Notes under the pieces: model-generated
What the model saw: the letters and a program-made list of their open reading frames with translations, nothing else
What the model was told of the DNA's origin: nothing
Databases searched by the model: none
Shown here: in pieces, positions 1,589-28,136 of the stretch
Numbering within the stretch: the stretch's first letter is position 1
Layout: the number at the start of each line of letters is the position of its first letter
Origin: a virus
Length of the DNA stretch: 28,136 nucleotides
Reading direction: 5' to 3' (one strand)
IMG/VR virus record: IMGVR_UViG_3300010318_000033
Location: 1-28,136 of that record
Position numbers and translations under genes: made by a program

Positions 1589-2097
1589 ATTATAGCTTGT
1601 GCAACTCGTTGCGCTGCTTCTATTAATTCATTCATGGTTCCGTTGTTGTAAATGTTTTGATTTGCCACTATTTGCGGAACCATTGTCTCGCTGACGTGTT
1701 GGCTTGCTGTTGTTTCAATGTTGTTTTCACGTTGAAGTTTTATTACATAACCTCCCATGCGCATGATAAAGTCGGCCTCAAATGGGAATCTTAAATCGTC
1801 GATAATAACGTGTTCTGTCCTGCTATCTATGCGCGGCTTGTGCTTAAACTCCACCATATTAAGCCAATAATTGCGCCCATAAAGTTGCTTCATAGTTTCG
1901 CCAATGGCTTGGTAAAGTGGCCTTATTTTTTCTTTATCTGCCGCATCGTTTCCATTCCTTGGCGCCGTTATGCCGTGCGCAAGCTCCTTAATTGGCGCTG
2001 CTAGGCTGTCAATTACGCTGTTTGGTAGTGCCTTGGATAAGTGACGTGCAAACGTGCTTTTGCCAGCTCGCATTTGTCCAGTGATTCCAATAATCAT
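1585..2097 (-). CDS. Deoxynucleoside monophosphate kinase
   Basis: This 170-aa P-loop protein begins with a Walker A motif in GITGQMRAGKSTFA (residues 4-17). Together with its length and the IIDDLRFPFEADFI segment (about residues 98-111), this matches phage deoxynucleoside monophosphate kinases, which phosphorylate dNMPs to dNDPs to supply the dNTP pool during phage replication. It acts in the cytoplasm. The gene starts in a 4-bp ATGA overlap with the end of dnaB and ends in another with the nuclease gene, so it is co-translated with replication functions. General adenylate-kinase-like NMP kinase is the alternative. Confidence 0.85.
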   Translation of the reverse strand: MIIGITGQMRAGKSTFARHLSKALPNSVIDSLAAPIKELAHGITAPRNGNDAADKEKIRPLYQAIGETMKQLYGRNYWLNMVEFKHKPRIDSRTEHVIIDDLRFPFEADFIMRMGGYVIKLQRENNIETTASQHVSETMVPQIVANQNIYNNGTMNELIEAAQRVAQAII

Positions 2098-3380
2098 AGT
2101 ATGTCTGTTTTTGGTTCGTTATATGTTGAGAATCTCCCGTTCCACTTTGTCCAATTAAGGCCAACTTTGCCAGTTCTGCCGTGCCTGTTTTTGCGAACAA
2201 GTAATTGTGTCAACTGCTCCTCGTTTGGGTCCATGTGCAGAAAACTCACGGTGTCGCTGTCCTGCTCAATGCTGCCGCTTTCGCGCAAATCCGAAAGGCG
2301 AGGCTCCCCGCTTCGCTCCTCTATGCTGCGGTTCATCTGGCAAAGCACAAGAAAAGGCACTTTTGTCTCAAGCGCTGCCTTTTTTAGCGCCTGCGATATT
2401 TCGCCAACTTCGCGCACGCGGTCCTTGCCTCTGTATGCTGGCGGTATCAGTCCCAGATAATCGACGACAAAAAGTTCTGCGTTGCGCTCACGCGCGTGGG
2501 TGCGTGCTTGGCTTCGCAGTTGAGTTATGTTGGTATCAACCTGGTCCTCTATTACAATTCTGCTCTGAGCGATGGCTTTTGTGCTTTCAATTATTTTTGC
2601 CGTGTTGCCCTGTCCCGTCTCCATATAGTGCCCCAAATCCTCCCCGCTATGGTTGGCCACCATTCGACTAATCACCTGCTCAAAAGGCATTTCGTAGCTC
2701 CAATAGACCACCTGCTTGCCTTGCATAGCGGCATTGAGCGCTAACTGGCAAGCAAGCGCTGTTTTGCCGCATCCTGGGCGCGCTGCCAGCGTGTTCATGC
2801 TTCCAGGCTTAAAACCTCGCAGGATGTCGTCAACCGCATCCATGCCCGTTCTAATGCCCGTTGATGGCAATCCGTTTGGGTAAGCTGTTTCGAGCAATTC
2901 CACGAAGTCCCGCCAGCGCTTTTTTTGGTCGCTCGCTTTGCCGCTATGGCCCGCAGTTATCTCGAAAAAGTCGCTTTCTAGCTTCGCCAATAGCGCCTTA
3001 GTGTCTGTTTCTGGGTCGCTCACCGCATGTAGCGCGTCATAATATCGTTGGTAAATCATTCGGCGCGTGGCAGTGTCTTGCAGCTCTGGAAGCCAAAAGC
3101 CAAGATTACTTGCCGTTGGCGCCTTCTCGATTGCCTCATAAAGCCAGAGGCCAAGCTTTGGCGCTTTCGCGCTAACGTTAACCTCGTTGATGTCTGAGCC
3201 AGCCTCCACCAAATCGGCCATAATGCGCCATGCCTCCAAAGCATTTAGCCCATAAAAATGGCGCTCTGAAACCCCCGCCGCAACTGCGTCCGAATATGCT
3301 CCCAAAATACAGCAACCAATTAGCCCCTTTTCGGCGCGGTCGCTGAAGGGAATCTCGGCAGGCATTATTAAATTGTTCAT
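2094..3380 (-). CDS. dnaB: Replicative DNA helicase, DnaB family
   Basis: This 428-aa hexameric helicase unwinds DNA ahead of the replication fork. The N-terminal DnaB domain occupies roughly residues 8-115. The RecA-like motor follows, with Walker A ARPGCGKT (200-207), the YWSYEMP segment (226-232), Walker B LFVVDYLGL (303-311), an LCQMNR sensor segment, and the ESGSIEQDSDTV and RKNRHGRTG arginine-finger regions. Length is near the usual 430-470 aa. I chose the ATG at 3380 because it overlaps the initiator stop as ATGA, the pattern used throughout this operon; an ATG two codons upstream is possible. No separate helicase loader is recognisable nearby, so the upstream initiator may load it directly. 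Confidence 0.97.
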   Translation of the reverse strand: MNNLIMPAEIPFSDRAEKGLIGCCILGAYSDAVAAGVSERHFYGLNALEAWRIMADLVEAGSDINEVNVSAKAPKLGLWLYEAIEKAPTASNLGFWLPELQDTATRRMIYQRYYDALHAVSDPETDTKALLAKLESDFFEITAGHSGKASDQKKRWRDFVELLETAYPNGLPSTGIRTGMDAVDDILRGFKPGSMNTLAARPGCGKTALACQLALNAAMQGKQVVYWSYEMPFEQVISRMVANHSGEDLGHYMETGQGNTAKIIESTKAIAQSRIVIEDQVDTNITQLRSQARTHARERNAELFVVDYLGLIPPAYRGKDRVREVGEISQALKKAALETKVPFLVLCQMNRSIEERSGEPRLSDLRESGSIEQDSDTVSFLHMDPNEEQLTQLLVRKNRHGRTGKVGLNWTKWNGRFSTYNEPKTDIL

Positions 3381-4042
3381 GCCCATTTTTCGGCCTTTCT
3401 GGTTGCAGGCCGGCGGCCTCTTAAATGCTCCATTCCTCCGAAAATCAGTGACAAAACATTGTCCTTGCCTTGAATGCCCTCAGAATCCTTTGTAACGGTA
3501 GCTTCTACTGACTCCGCTGTGTTCATACTGCTTCGGGCCTCTGATGCCTCCTTGGTGGCATTCTGTGCGTTTATGGCGGCACGTACGGCCGCTGCGCTAT
3601 GCTCCGAAACCTCTTTACCTTGAAAAGCAGCATTTTCTGTTGCATTGGCGATGTTGGTGGCTTTGTTTGGCTCTGTTTGCATTGGTTGCTCCCCTATAGC
3701 TGTACTATAGCTAAATAAGTTATTACTTTGTGGCGCCATTTGGCGCCATGTCTCCCGTTTGGGCGCATCAAGGCGAATACCAAGTTGGTCGGCTAATTTA
3801 TAGCATTTTGTGGCGCGTTTATTGGCGCCATTTGGCGCCAGCACTAGCCACTGGTGTGCTACTAATTCGCGCAGGATTTTGCCCACGTCGTGGCGTTCTA
3901 CGTGGATGCATTTTGCAATTGTGGCCTGCGATGCGTAGCACTGCCCGCGCCGCGCTACATAGCATAAAACAGCGATGTGGCGCGCGGTAAATCCCTGCTC
4001 AAATATCCATGCAGGGATGAATGGTGTTTTTATTTTCTCCAT
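3377..4042 (-). CDS. Winged-helix replication initiator (lambda O-like role)
   Basis: This 221-aa protein has an N-terminal winged helix (about residues 15-95) with the pattern FTARHIAVLCYVARRG, then SQATIAKCIHVERHDVGKILRELV and a wing in LVLAPNGANKR. The middle is low-complexity and Ala/Glu/Asn-rich, and the C-terminus is basic (RGRRPATRKAEKW). Its position directly upstream of dnaB, its DNA-binding N-terminus and its linker plus tail match phage replisome organisers such as lambda O. The gene contains iteron-like DNA repeats, as the lambda O gene does. A strong Shine-Dalgarno (AAGGAGGG) lies 4 bp before the ATG at 4042. Sequence homology to a named family cannot be shown by eye. Confidence 0.75.
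   Translation of the reverse strand: MEKIKTPFIPAWIFEQGFTARHIAVLCYVARRGQCYASQATIAKCIHVERHDVGKILRELVAHQWLVLAPNGANKRATKCYKLADQLGIRLDAPKRETWRQMAPQSNNLFSYSTAIGEQPMQTEPNKATNIANATENAAFQGKEVSEHSAAAVRAAINAQNATKEASEARSSMNTAESVEATVTKDSEGIQGKDNVLSLIFGGMEHLRGRRPATRKAEKWA
3691..3840. repeat. Iteron-like repeats and AT-rich flank: candidate replication origin
   Basis: Inside the initiator gene the 8-bp palindrome TGGCGCCA occurs four times as two pairs on a 10-bp step: 3731 and 3741, then 3823 and 3833. A fifth degenerate copy (TGGCGCGT) lies at 3811. The 18-bp pair TGGCGCCAAATGGCGCCA is translated in two different frames (LAPNGAN and WRQMAP), so the DNA rather than the protein is conserved. An AT-rich stretch at 3694-3730 with two CTATAGCT copies (3694 and 3705) adjoins the iterons. 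This layout parallels the lambda origin, which lies within O. Confidence 0.6.
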
Positions 4043-25631: not shown

Positions 25632-25661
25632 AAAAAAGCGGCAACGATTAATCGCTGCCGC
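25632..25661 (-). terminator. Strong intrinsic terminator between terminase and head genes
   Basis: On the minus strand a 12-bp self-complementary stem (plus-strand 25638-25661, one G-U pair, no long loop) is followed directly by six T (plus-strand A-run at 25632-25637). This is a textbook rho-independent terminator facing the late genes, placed 43 bp upstream of the gpW-like ATG. It would separate terminase transcription from head-gene transcription unless read-through or antitermination occurs. Confidence 0.85.
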
Positions 25662-25681
25662 CCTTGCTTTTGTGGTTTATG

Positions 25682-25711
25682 TTTTTCTTATTCCGCAGTG
25701 CTAAATAGTTT
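25682..25711. repeat. Direct repeat, downstream copy of the terminase 3' end
   Basis: These 30 bp repeat positions 25862-25891 with one mismatch at an offset of exactly 180 bp. The right-hand copy encodes the last codons of the large terminase (KLFSTAE plus stop). This copy is a displaced 3' end that still ends in a stop triplet (TAA instead of TAG). The layout is what remains when DNA inserts at a gene's 3' end and duplicates it. Confidence 0.9.
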
Positions 25712-25841
25712 CAGTGGACCAGTGGACCAAGTTCCCGAGTTGCTGAGAAATTAGGACGCAATCTTTCCATCCAACTGAAAAGCCAATAACAAGACCTTAA
25801 AAGTTCTAGAACTCACAAACAGAGTCCACTGGTCCACTGAA
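25710..25841. repeat. 132-bp segment bounded by perfect 18-bp inverted repeats
   Basis: TTCAGTGGACCAGTGGAC at 25710-25727 is the exact reverse complement of 25824-25841. Each arm contains a tandem repeat: GTGGACCA twice in the left arm, one and a partial copy in the right. The 96-bp interior has no ORF over 30 codons and contains a 12-bp palindrome AGTTCTAGAACT at 25802-25813. The segment lies between the two copies of the terminase 3' end. It could be a miniature non-autonomous mobile element, a recombinase site pair, or a structured noncoding RNA on the late transcript. I know of no family it belongs to. Confidence 0.8.
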
Positions 25842-25861
25842 CTTGTGCCTTGTAATTCATA

Positions 25862-25891
25862 TTTTTCCTATTCCGCAGTGCTAAATAGTTT
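25862..25891. repeat. Direct repeat, upstream copy within the terminase 3' end
   Basis: This is the partner of 25682-25711, with one mismatch. It covers the final codons of the large terminase and the first bases after its stop codon. Confidence 0.9.
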
Positions 25892-27589
25892 TGCAATACT
25901 CGCCGCTACAACTTGCATAAGTTCGCAATCCCAGCCGTGATTTGCGCGGAAGGAAACCCAGCGCAAAGTCGTTCTGCCGTGCTTGTCCAGAACCTCTTTC
26001 TTCCGCTCGGAGTCAATTTGTTTTGCATATTCGTCGGCCATTTCGCCGAGGTCGCAAACCTCCCAAGGATGTGATTTGCCGCTTTTGAGCAACTGCAATA
26101 CGTCTTTGGTTGTTGGGTTGCTCCATCTAAAAACAGGCGGCGCCGTGCGCCCTGTTGCGCTGACGCGTGTTGGCTTTGAAAACATGCGGCGCACGGTGTG
26201 CCCGTTTATGCTGTGCGCGTAGTCGGTAGTGTCTTCACCGCGCATACCCATCCATCCGTAGCGCCCGCACTCCGCCAAAACCCTGGCGCGTTGGTAGCCG
26301 ACATCCAAGAAAGTCCGTTGTGGTGCTATGTTGAATTCCTTGCGCATTGCTTCGATTTCATCAAACGAAGTCAAGCGGCGAAACGAAAGCAAACGGCTGG
26401 CGCCTGTTTTGCTCCAACTGCGTGCCACCGCCCAAAATTCCTCAAGGTATGCTTGCACGTCTACAGTCAAAAATCGCGTTGCCTCGTCCGCCCATTCGGC
26501 GCTTGGTTCGTAGTCTTTGACAACCACTTTTTCAATGTCTACGTGATTTGTAGCTTTCCAAGGCTCCGCAAGTCGCAGCGTCACGAATTCGCGCAATGGC
26601 TGAATGTAGCCACCGGCGGCGTGCTGTTTAGCTCGCAGGAAATCGACAACCAAATCCGCCCAAGGCATAACTGAAGGCGGAAGAGCCAACTGGTTGAAAC
26701 TAAACGAGCGCACCCGTGGCGTTGGGTTGTCGTTAGTGGCTATGTAGCCTCCCTTGCTCATCGCCCGCCAATTGGTTTCGGTGTTTTCGTGCTGGTGTCC
26801 ACAATGCGGGCAAACCATGCGCACCGTTTCGCTAACTGCTTCAAAGTCCCAGACGCCAGCTGGTTTTGTTTTTTCGTTAGTGTCCCATTGGAGGCAATCG
26901 TAAAATGCTGGCATGAAAAGCTCACTGCATCCAATGCACTTGAGGTGCCAATGCTCGCAGGTGCCAGCCTTGTATGCGCCATCGAAATCGCTGCCCTCTT
27001 CTTCGGGCGTGCTACTTAGCCAGTGCTTGCGGTTCCAGTAGCGCGTAGTTCGTGCCCGCGCTCGCGCCAACATGCCAGGCTTCCAAGCGCTGACTTCGTC
27101 GCCAAACAGCCAGCGAATAGACCAGCTGCGAAGAAAGTTATTATTGGCGGCGCCCAGTTTTAGCGTGCATGTAGTCAGAAAAATTTCGGTGTTGGTTTTT
27201 TTGTGGCGGTCTGTTGGAAACTGACGGCGCAGTGTTGCACAACTCTCCAACATCGGCATAAGGCGCTCCTTGGAAAAATCCTTGGCGGCGTCTTCGTCCT
27301 GAATCACCGTCATGGTTGGCCCTGGATGGTTTGCCAGCGCCCAAGCTATGGCTACTTGCATTGAAACTGTTTTGCCAGTTTGGGCAGCGCAATTTAACAC
27401 AACCTCCTCAGTGTTGGGGTCTGCAAACGCGGTCAACGGTTCCAATAACCAAGGCGTTTCGGTAGCGCGGAATTGGTTGCCGTATGGTGATTCTCGAAGG
27501 CGGATGTTATCAAGCGCCCAGTCTGGAATGGTTGCTTTTTGCTTTTCTGCAAATGCCGTCGCCAAGCATTCCCTTATTATGTTTTCCAT
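25868..27589 (-). CDS. Terminase large subunit, GpA family
   Basis: This ATP-driven DNA packaging motor and nuclease is 573 aa from the ATG at 27589, which follows the small-subunit stop by 13 bp; a longer frame to 27655 would overlap it. The ATPase has Walker A CAAQTGKT (67-74) and Walker B WLFGDEVSAW (160-169). A zinc-binding region has CIGC (218-221) and CPHCG (260-264). The nuclease half includes RFLTVDVQAYLEEFWAVA. Lambda gpA is 641 aa. Motif order and zinc region match GpA enzymes that cut at cos and leave 5' overhangs, fitting the terminal 16-base repeat. Its 3' end is duplicated 180 bp downstream. Confidence 0.95.
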   Translation of the reverse strand: MENIIRECLATAFAEKQKATIPDWALDNIRLRESPYGNQFRATETPWLLEPLTAFADPNTEEVVLNCAAQTGKTVSMQVAIAWALANHPGPTMTVIQDEDAAKDFSKERLMPMLESCATLRRQFPTDRHKKTNTEIFLTTCTLKLGAANNNFLRSWSIRWLFGDEVSAWKPGMLARARARTTRYWNRKHWLSSTPEEEGSDFDGAYKAGTCEHWHLKCIGCSELFMPAFYDCLQWDTNEKTKPAGVWDFEAVSETVRMVCPHCGHQHENTETNWRAMSKGGYIATNDNPTPRVRSFSFNQLALPPSVMPWADLVVDFLRAKQHAAGGYIQPLREFVTLRLAEPWKATNHVDIEKVVVKDYEPSAEWADEATRFLTVDVQAYLEEFWAVARSWSKTGASRLLSFRRLTSFDEIEAMRKEFNIAPQRTFLDVGYQRARVLAECGRYGWMGMRGEDTTDYAHSINGHTVRRMFSKPTRVSATGRTAPPVFRWSNPTTKDVLQLLKSGKSHPWEVCDLGEMADEYAKQIDSERKKEVLDKHGRTTLRWVSFRANHGWDCELMQVVAASIAKLFSTAE

Positions 27590-27602
27590 GCGTTCAATTA
27601 AA

Positions 27603-28106
27603 TCATGCTTTTGTATGCGCTCGCAGTGTTTCGCGCAGTTTGTCGTTGTACGCAATTATGACCGGTTGAGCTTCGGTTGGCGTCAAGCCTGCCACCATTG
27701 GCGCCAGCTTGCTTTCCATCTCGTCAAGGTGTTTGGCGAACTCCATGCAAAGCGCCATTGTCGCCCGCCTCACTTCTTCGCGGTCCAACATTTTGCCGCG
27801 CAGGCCGTCCAGTTCCACGTCCAGTTTTTCAACCTGCCGGCGGATTTTCTCGACCTCGTGCCACTCTTTGGTGCCAGGTTGCGCTTCGTTGCCGCTTTCG
27901 TTGGCGCTTGTTTTCCGCGCTTCGGTGACTGCTTCCAGCGTGTAGAGGTTCGCTCCCCGTGCGCCAGTTTTTGCTATAGGAACGCGTATCAGAAAGTTAC
28001 GCGCTTCATGGTAACTCATGTCTAATTTTTGCGCCACATCGGCTATGGTGAGCAGGGGCGGCGTGCTGGAACTCTTTTTGCGTGTAGGTTTTGCGGGTTT
28101 GGTCAT
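27603..28106 (-). CDS. Terminase small subunit, Nu1-like
   Basis: This 167-aa protein has a Lys-rich N-terminus, then a winged-helix DNA-binding domain (about residues 18-65: LLTIADVAQKLDMSYHEARN and NLYTLEAVTEARK). A coiled coil follows (EVEKIRRQVEKLDVELDGLR), with a helical C-terminus for contact with the large subunit. It recognises the cos site and recruits the large terminase. The gene starts 15 bp inside the 28121-28136 repeat, as lambda Nu1 lies just past cos. The ATG at 28106 has no strong Shine-Dalgarno. Confidence 0.88.
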   Translation of the reverse strand: MTKPAKPTRKKSSSTPPLLTIADVAQKLDMSYHEARNFLIRVPIAKTGARGANLYTLEAVTEARKTSANESGNEAQPGTKEWHEVEKIRRQVEKLDVELDGLRGKMLDREEVRRATMALCMEFAKHLDEMESKLAPMVAGLTPTEAQPVIIAYNDKLRETLRAHTKA

Positions 28107-28120
28107 GGCTTTTGTTCGCG

Positions 28121-28136
28121 CTCGTGCGCGGAAACC
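28121..28136. repeat. Terminal direct repeat, right copy; putative cos cohesive end
   Basis: This is an exact copy of bases 1-16, just upstream of the small terminase gene on the minus strand. See the left copy for interpretation. Confidence 0.6.

Follow-up and report, generated by a model that had tools for sequence, protein, structure and literature searches.

The window (the whole stretch of viral DNA analyzed here, 28,136 nucleotides) carries the gene for a gpA-type terminase large subunit (TerL) close to its right end and the phage's own replication genes close to its left end (Table 1). By its terminase, the nearest named phage is Verrucomicrobia phage P8625, with 27% identity. Positions 1-16 and 28121-28136 of the window are identical (CTCGTGCGCGGAAACC). 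Relatives with lengths of 28,976 and 29,463 bp have their ends at this sequence as well, and dozens of related contigs covering the TerS side stop exactly at it, just 5' of TerS, while some read through it. Such termini are a signature of cos ends, so the window is probably a complete cos-ended genome. The related contig 3300005512_000238 (5512 in what follows) starts with an Illumina-adapter-like sequence (TGCTCTTCCGATCT; L136, 1-14) placed directly before the genome end. An IMG/VR search for satellites carrying the cos sequence of the phage turned up nothing beyond members of its own group. The genes for the lambda-O-like initiator and the DnaB-type helicase are kept in more distant relatives. 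Within the lambda-O-like gene TGGCGCCATTTGGCGCCA occurs twice, 92 bp apart, and this pair is a candidate for the native origin; 5512 has a near-identical pair, and the exact TGGCGCCA was not found in the fetched part of 3300025889_000667. With seven SF3/primase proteins as queries, neither the window nor the fetched portions of related contigs yielded a relative.

Table 1. Features of the window discussed in the text
Feature	Position	Strand	Remarks
DnaB-type replicative helicase	2094..3386	minus	phage's own
Lambda-O-like replication initiator	3377..4042	minus	phage's own
TGGCGCCATTTGGCGCCA pair	3731..3748, 3823..3840		inside the lambda-O-like gene
Intrinsic-terminator-like hairpin	25634..25665	minus	common to filled and empty relatives
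Direct-repeat copy R2	25670..25711	minus	non-coding duplicate, runs straight into the common downstream sequence
Iteron array, opposed arm	25710..25729	plus	TTCA + two GTGGACCA units; 25710-25727 in the perfect inverted repeat
138-bp insert	25712..25849		missing in empty-site relatives
Insert interior	25730..25823		about 95 bp, 39% G+C (genome 50%); candidate melting region
Iteron array, one arm	25824..25841	minus	GTGGACCA and GTGGAC units; minus strand reads TTCAGTGGACCAGTGGAC; whole arm in the perfect inverted repeat
Direct-repeat copy R1	25850..25891	minus	genuine terminase 3' end (stop at 25868) plus 18 bp
Terminase large subunit (gpA type), TerL	25868..27655	minus	

The end of the terminase gene is present in two direct copies of 42 bp, 88% identical and spaced by 180 bp. 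An earlier note, made from the letters of the window, had described a 30-bp repeat with one mismatch and this spacing, which proved to be the core of the longer one. It had also stated that both copies keep a stop codon; an in-register TAA is indeed found in each, but only R1 is coding because TerL ends at 25868. The segment between the copies measures 138 bp instead of the 132 bp first given, contains no gene and thus lacks the integrase expected of an integrated element. A sigma-70-like promoter was sought in the insert region and none was found. The ends of the insert form a perfect 18-bp inverted repeat built on the GTGGACCA unit, just as had been noticed, and this repeat runs on imperfectly to 32 bp. 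Each arm consists of two GTGGACCA-like units (inverted array motif, GTGGACCAGTGGAC). Judged from its sequence, the palindrome is made up of two iteron-like arrays in opposed orientation, arranged as in an SF3-type replication origin, a point that the earlier note missed. GTGGACCA has three occurrences in the window, all of them within the insert region, a count reached by one of 100 shuffles. Exact 14-mer inverted seeds at most 200 bp apart were six in the window and zero in 29 of 30 shuffles, and comparable inverted or direct repeats were almost absent from shuffled windows.

To gather related IMG/VR contigs, we used the terminase, the gene next to it and the repeat as queries. Eight of them carry the insert at the same site, and four close relatives (three distinct sequences, 7-8% divergent) have an empty site, in which a single terminase end is followed directly by the shared terminator; more distant relatives likewise lack the insert. 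The comparison of related phages proposed in the earlier note thus revealed empty sites and upheld its view of the segment as an insertion: the direct repeat restores the gene end and relatives have empty sites, as in an element placed at a gene 3' end. Trees of the flanking sequences group the empty phages together, with AU p values of 0.22 and 0.33 for one filled clade. The empty sites may be either ancestral (the insert was never gained) or restored (the insert was lost), both histories being compatible with the flanking trees. In 5512 the inner unit of one insert arm is altered. This phage carries a second iteron-like palindrome (L008, about 3510-3640), made of CCGACAATAC units with a short interior, which separates the GTGGACCA insert from the terminase end. 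Only two other contigs with the CCGACAATAC motif were found (L117 and L118), and in these DUF5906/VapE-type helicases are encoded about 3 kb away.

Inverted ends and empty sites could also belong to a transposable element bounded by terminal inverted repeats, MITE-like or of another kind, and a minimal self-moving element had been suggested before. We give this explanation almost no credence. Neither the short target duplication nor the dispersed copies of a transposon or MITE were found: the duplication is of 42 bp, unusual for a transposon, no recombinase is present, the insert occurs once in each genome, its site does not vary, and the arms found at other loci (see below) enclose unrelated interiors. 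The proposed search for copies elsewhere, a BLASTN comparison of the insert with named phage and plasmid records, gave no match.

The insert might instead be a structured RNA, or a processing or termination element that ends the terminase transcript. Its location just after the stop codon and its strong minus-strand fold (z -5.4) are in line with this, the strength of the fold being accounted for by the inverted repeat alone. However, the covariation check that the earlier note had called for to support an RNA function showed compensatory changes in none of the 48 predicted pairs (in only five closely related sequences), the variant arm of 5512 is uncompensated, an Rfam search gave no match, and the terminator common to the empty-site phages already lies downstream. 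An RNA role is therefore quite improbable.

Over 128 aligned bases of the insert, most phages differ from each other by 0-4%; pairs that include 5512 differ by as much as 6.2%, and the differences lie mostly outside the arms. Adjacent DNA shows mostly about 4-12% divergence and the terminase third positions 14-25%. Part of the similarity is due to recombination, because the window and 25769 have a recently exchanged downstream flank in common. The lower divergence of the insert relative to its flanks suggests constraint, and recent spread may explain part of it. This bears on the possibility of a passive scar, that is, the remnant of a satellite or plasmid that would have recombined, homologously or site-specifically, into the terminase 3' end, decayed to its origin and no longer have a function. 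The 42-bp duplication is as would remain after a Campbell or att-type insertion, empty sites exist and the partner gene is absent, all of which agree with a scar. Yet the insert has preserved its arms and most of its interior, with greater divergence in the adjacent DNA and at synonymous sites, and we consider a functionless remnant rather unlikely.

The same architecture was found at other loci. A scan for the two-arm pattern returned one locus from a collection of species genomes and three from IMG/VR besides the group of the window, and further loci were added by one-arm and three-unit scans. Eight loci (seven independent) were compared, and in six of them the opposed TGGACC arrays follow the 3' end of a helicase-primase gene of the D5/VapE/Prim-Pol type at a distance of 2-425 bp. 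This association is based on few loci, mostly found by their motif, and had an informal control only. These genes are VapE in Sulfitobacter brevis and L110, a D5_N gene in L106, a relative of the latter in L107, a Prim-Pol gene in L017 and the gene for a RepB_primase-like protein in L010. All five copies of the TGGACCACTGGACCA unit pair in the 4.2-Mb S. brevis genome are located no more than 242 bp downstream of the VapE gene. The array interiors, unrelated in sequence to one another, are 55-106 bp long with 23-40% G+C, against 49-62% for the contigs (measured loci, with the main L107 pair excluded). L113 and L114, which are mutually similar, have arrays without a recognized replication gene beside them. 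The opposed-array pattern had no match in 398 Pseudomonadota genomes, though the exact pattern also misses the known S. brevis site. Two-unit matches appeared in six other Rhodobacteraceae genomes, where five resemble chance single sites and the other (L125, from a short contig) is an array of three units; no replication-protein match was found near these six sites.

Three further occurrences of such arrays were recorded: 1) Contig 3300034152_000329 (L133, 7918-8044) has opposed TGGACC arrays around AT-rich DNA, with a tail gene on one side and an exonuclease gene on the other, and no primase/SF3 gene was recognized near them in this incomplete contig; they are possibly another orphan origin. 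2) Multi-copy TGGACCA arrays are found in a phage group with a Toprim primase and a DEAD helicase, directly 3' of the primase gene in L109 and L112 and farther off in L108, L111, L115 and L116. 3) In contig 3300028388_003961 (L130, 10994-12199) an IS605 OrfB/TnpB-like gene is situated between the terminase genes and TGGACC arrays.

We also took related helicases in named phages, rather than the motif, as the starting point and read the gap downstream of the helicase gene for opposed tandem arrays. Such arrays, made of other motifs, were observed in all seven examined phages with a non-coding gap of at least about 270 bp after the helicase gene. A fixed detector was positive in five of them (Yuna, Dulem virus 37, phiFL4A, IME1320_01 and StAB), and the arrays of 4995_2 and 2638A were seen by eye. 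Phages without such a gap behind the helicase gene showed no opposed arrays. Applied to the window, the same detector marked two places only, the insert and the lambda-O-like gene, and it marked 0 or 1 in 20 shuffled windows.

Since the phage has its own lambda-O-like/DnaB replication and no SF3-type initiator gene was found in its probably complete genome, the insert is best read as an orphan, probably a replication origin of the SF3 helicase-primase type that sits behind the terminase gene in a phage of the cos type. That it derives from an origin is, on the present comparisons, very likely; that it is active today is somewhat doubtful. Like the origins of SF3 replicons and PICIs, it has two sets of iterons flanking an AT-rich stretch, but it follows the terminase gene rather than lying directly 3' of its own initiator/helicase-primase gene. 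Against the origin reading stand the missing initiator gene, the only two units per arm, the only moderately AT-rich interior, the L113/L114 arrays and the altered unit of 5512. No donor element for the insert was found. A cognate initiator would come in trans from another element of the host cell (a satellite, a plasmid or a prophage), bind the iterons and melt the AT-richer interior, and as an outcome extra phage replication would be fired or the initiator would be titrated. The 42-bp duplication could have arisen when a larger circular replicon inserted, by a Campbell-type single crossover or in an att-like manner, and then lost everything but its origin; att-like integration at the gene 3' end is a possible route of arrival.

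This probable orphan origin suggests that phages acquire foreign origins and perhaps make use of them. These could even serve as cis-acting bait that recruits or titrates the initiator of a competitor, with the terminase 3' end as a docking site where origins accumulate, an idea for which the second, different palindrome at the terminase 3' end of 5512 can be cited and which we put forward as speculative and on balance unlikely. If the insert works, the phage would have a second origin answering to the initiator of another element, a hijack or counter-satellite strategy of which no description was found in the literature searched. The sequence rule itself (short tandem arrays in opposed orientation, 3' of an SF3 helicase-primase gene) could be used to locate satellite and phage origins, as well as orphans, in metagenomes.

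The origin of satellite phage P4 contains repeats recognized by the primase-SF3 helicase initiator alpha (summarized in PMC4234260). The insert would be an origin of this initiator-recognized repeat type, a likeness drawn from the general description of the P4 origin, and it differs in that P4 has its own alpha gene. In PICIs the origin, located 3' of rep, always consists of an AT-rich region with a set of iterons on either side, and a plasmid test showed one PICI-type replicon to be functional (PMC6092414). The insert shares the two sets of short iterons around an AT-rich stretch; however, the PICI origin is placed directly 3' of rep on the satellite, whereas the insert has no rep and its carrier phage has other replication genes. 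Plasmid pRN1 depends on a stem-loop, about 100 bp in size and located 3' of the primase-helicase gene, and this element still works when moved within the plasmid (PMC4234260). The insert resembles it as a palindrome of about 100 bp typical of a primase-SF3 helicase replicon, but it has tandem short iterons, and the initiator gene of pRN1 is on the same plasmid. Phage ICP1 encodes Odn, an origin-directed nuclease with an initiator-like DNA-binding domain that acts against PLE satellites (PMC8263062). ICP1, a lytic phage, exploits the specificity of the origin and the initiator of a satellite by means of this nuclease; the insert-bearing phage would do so by a copied origin.
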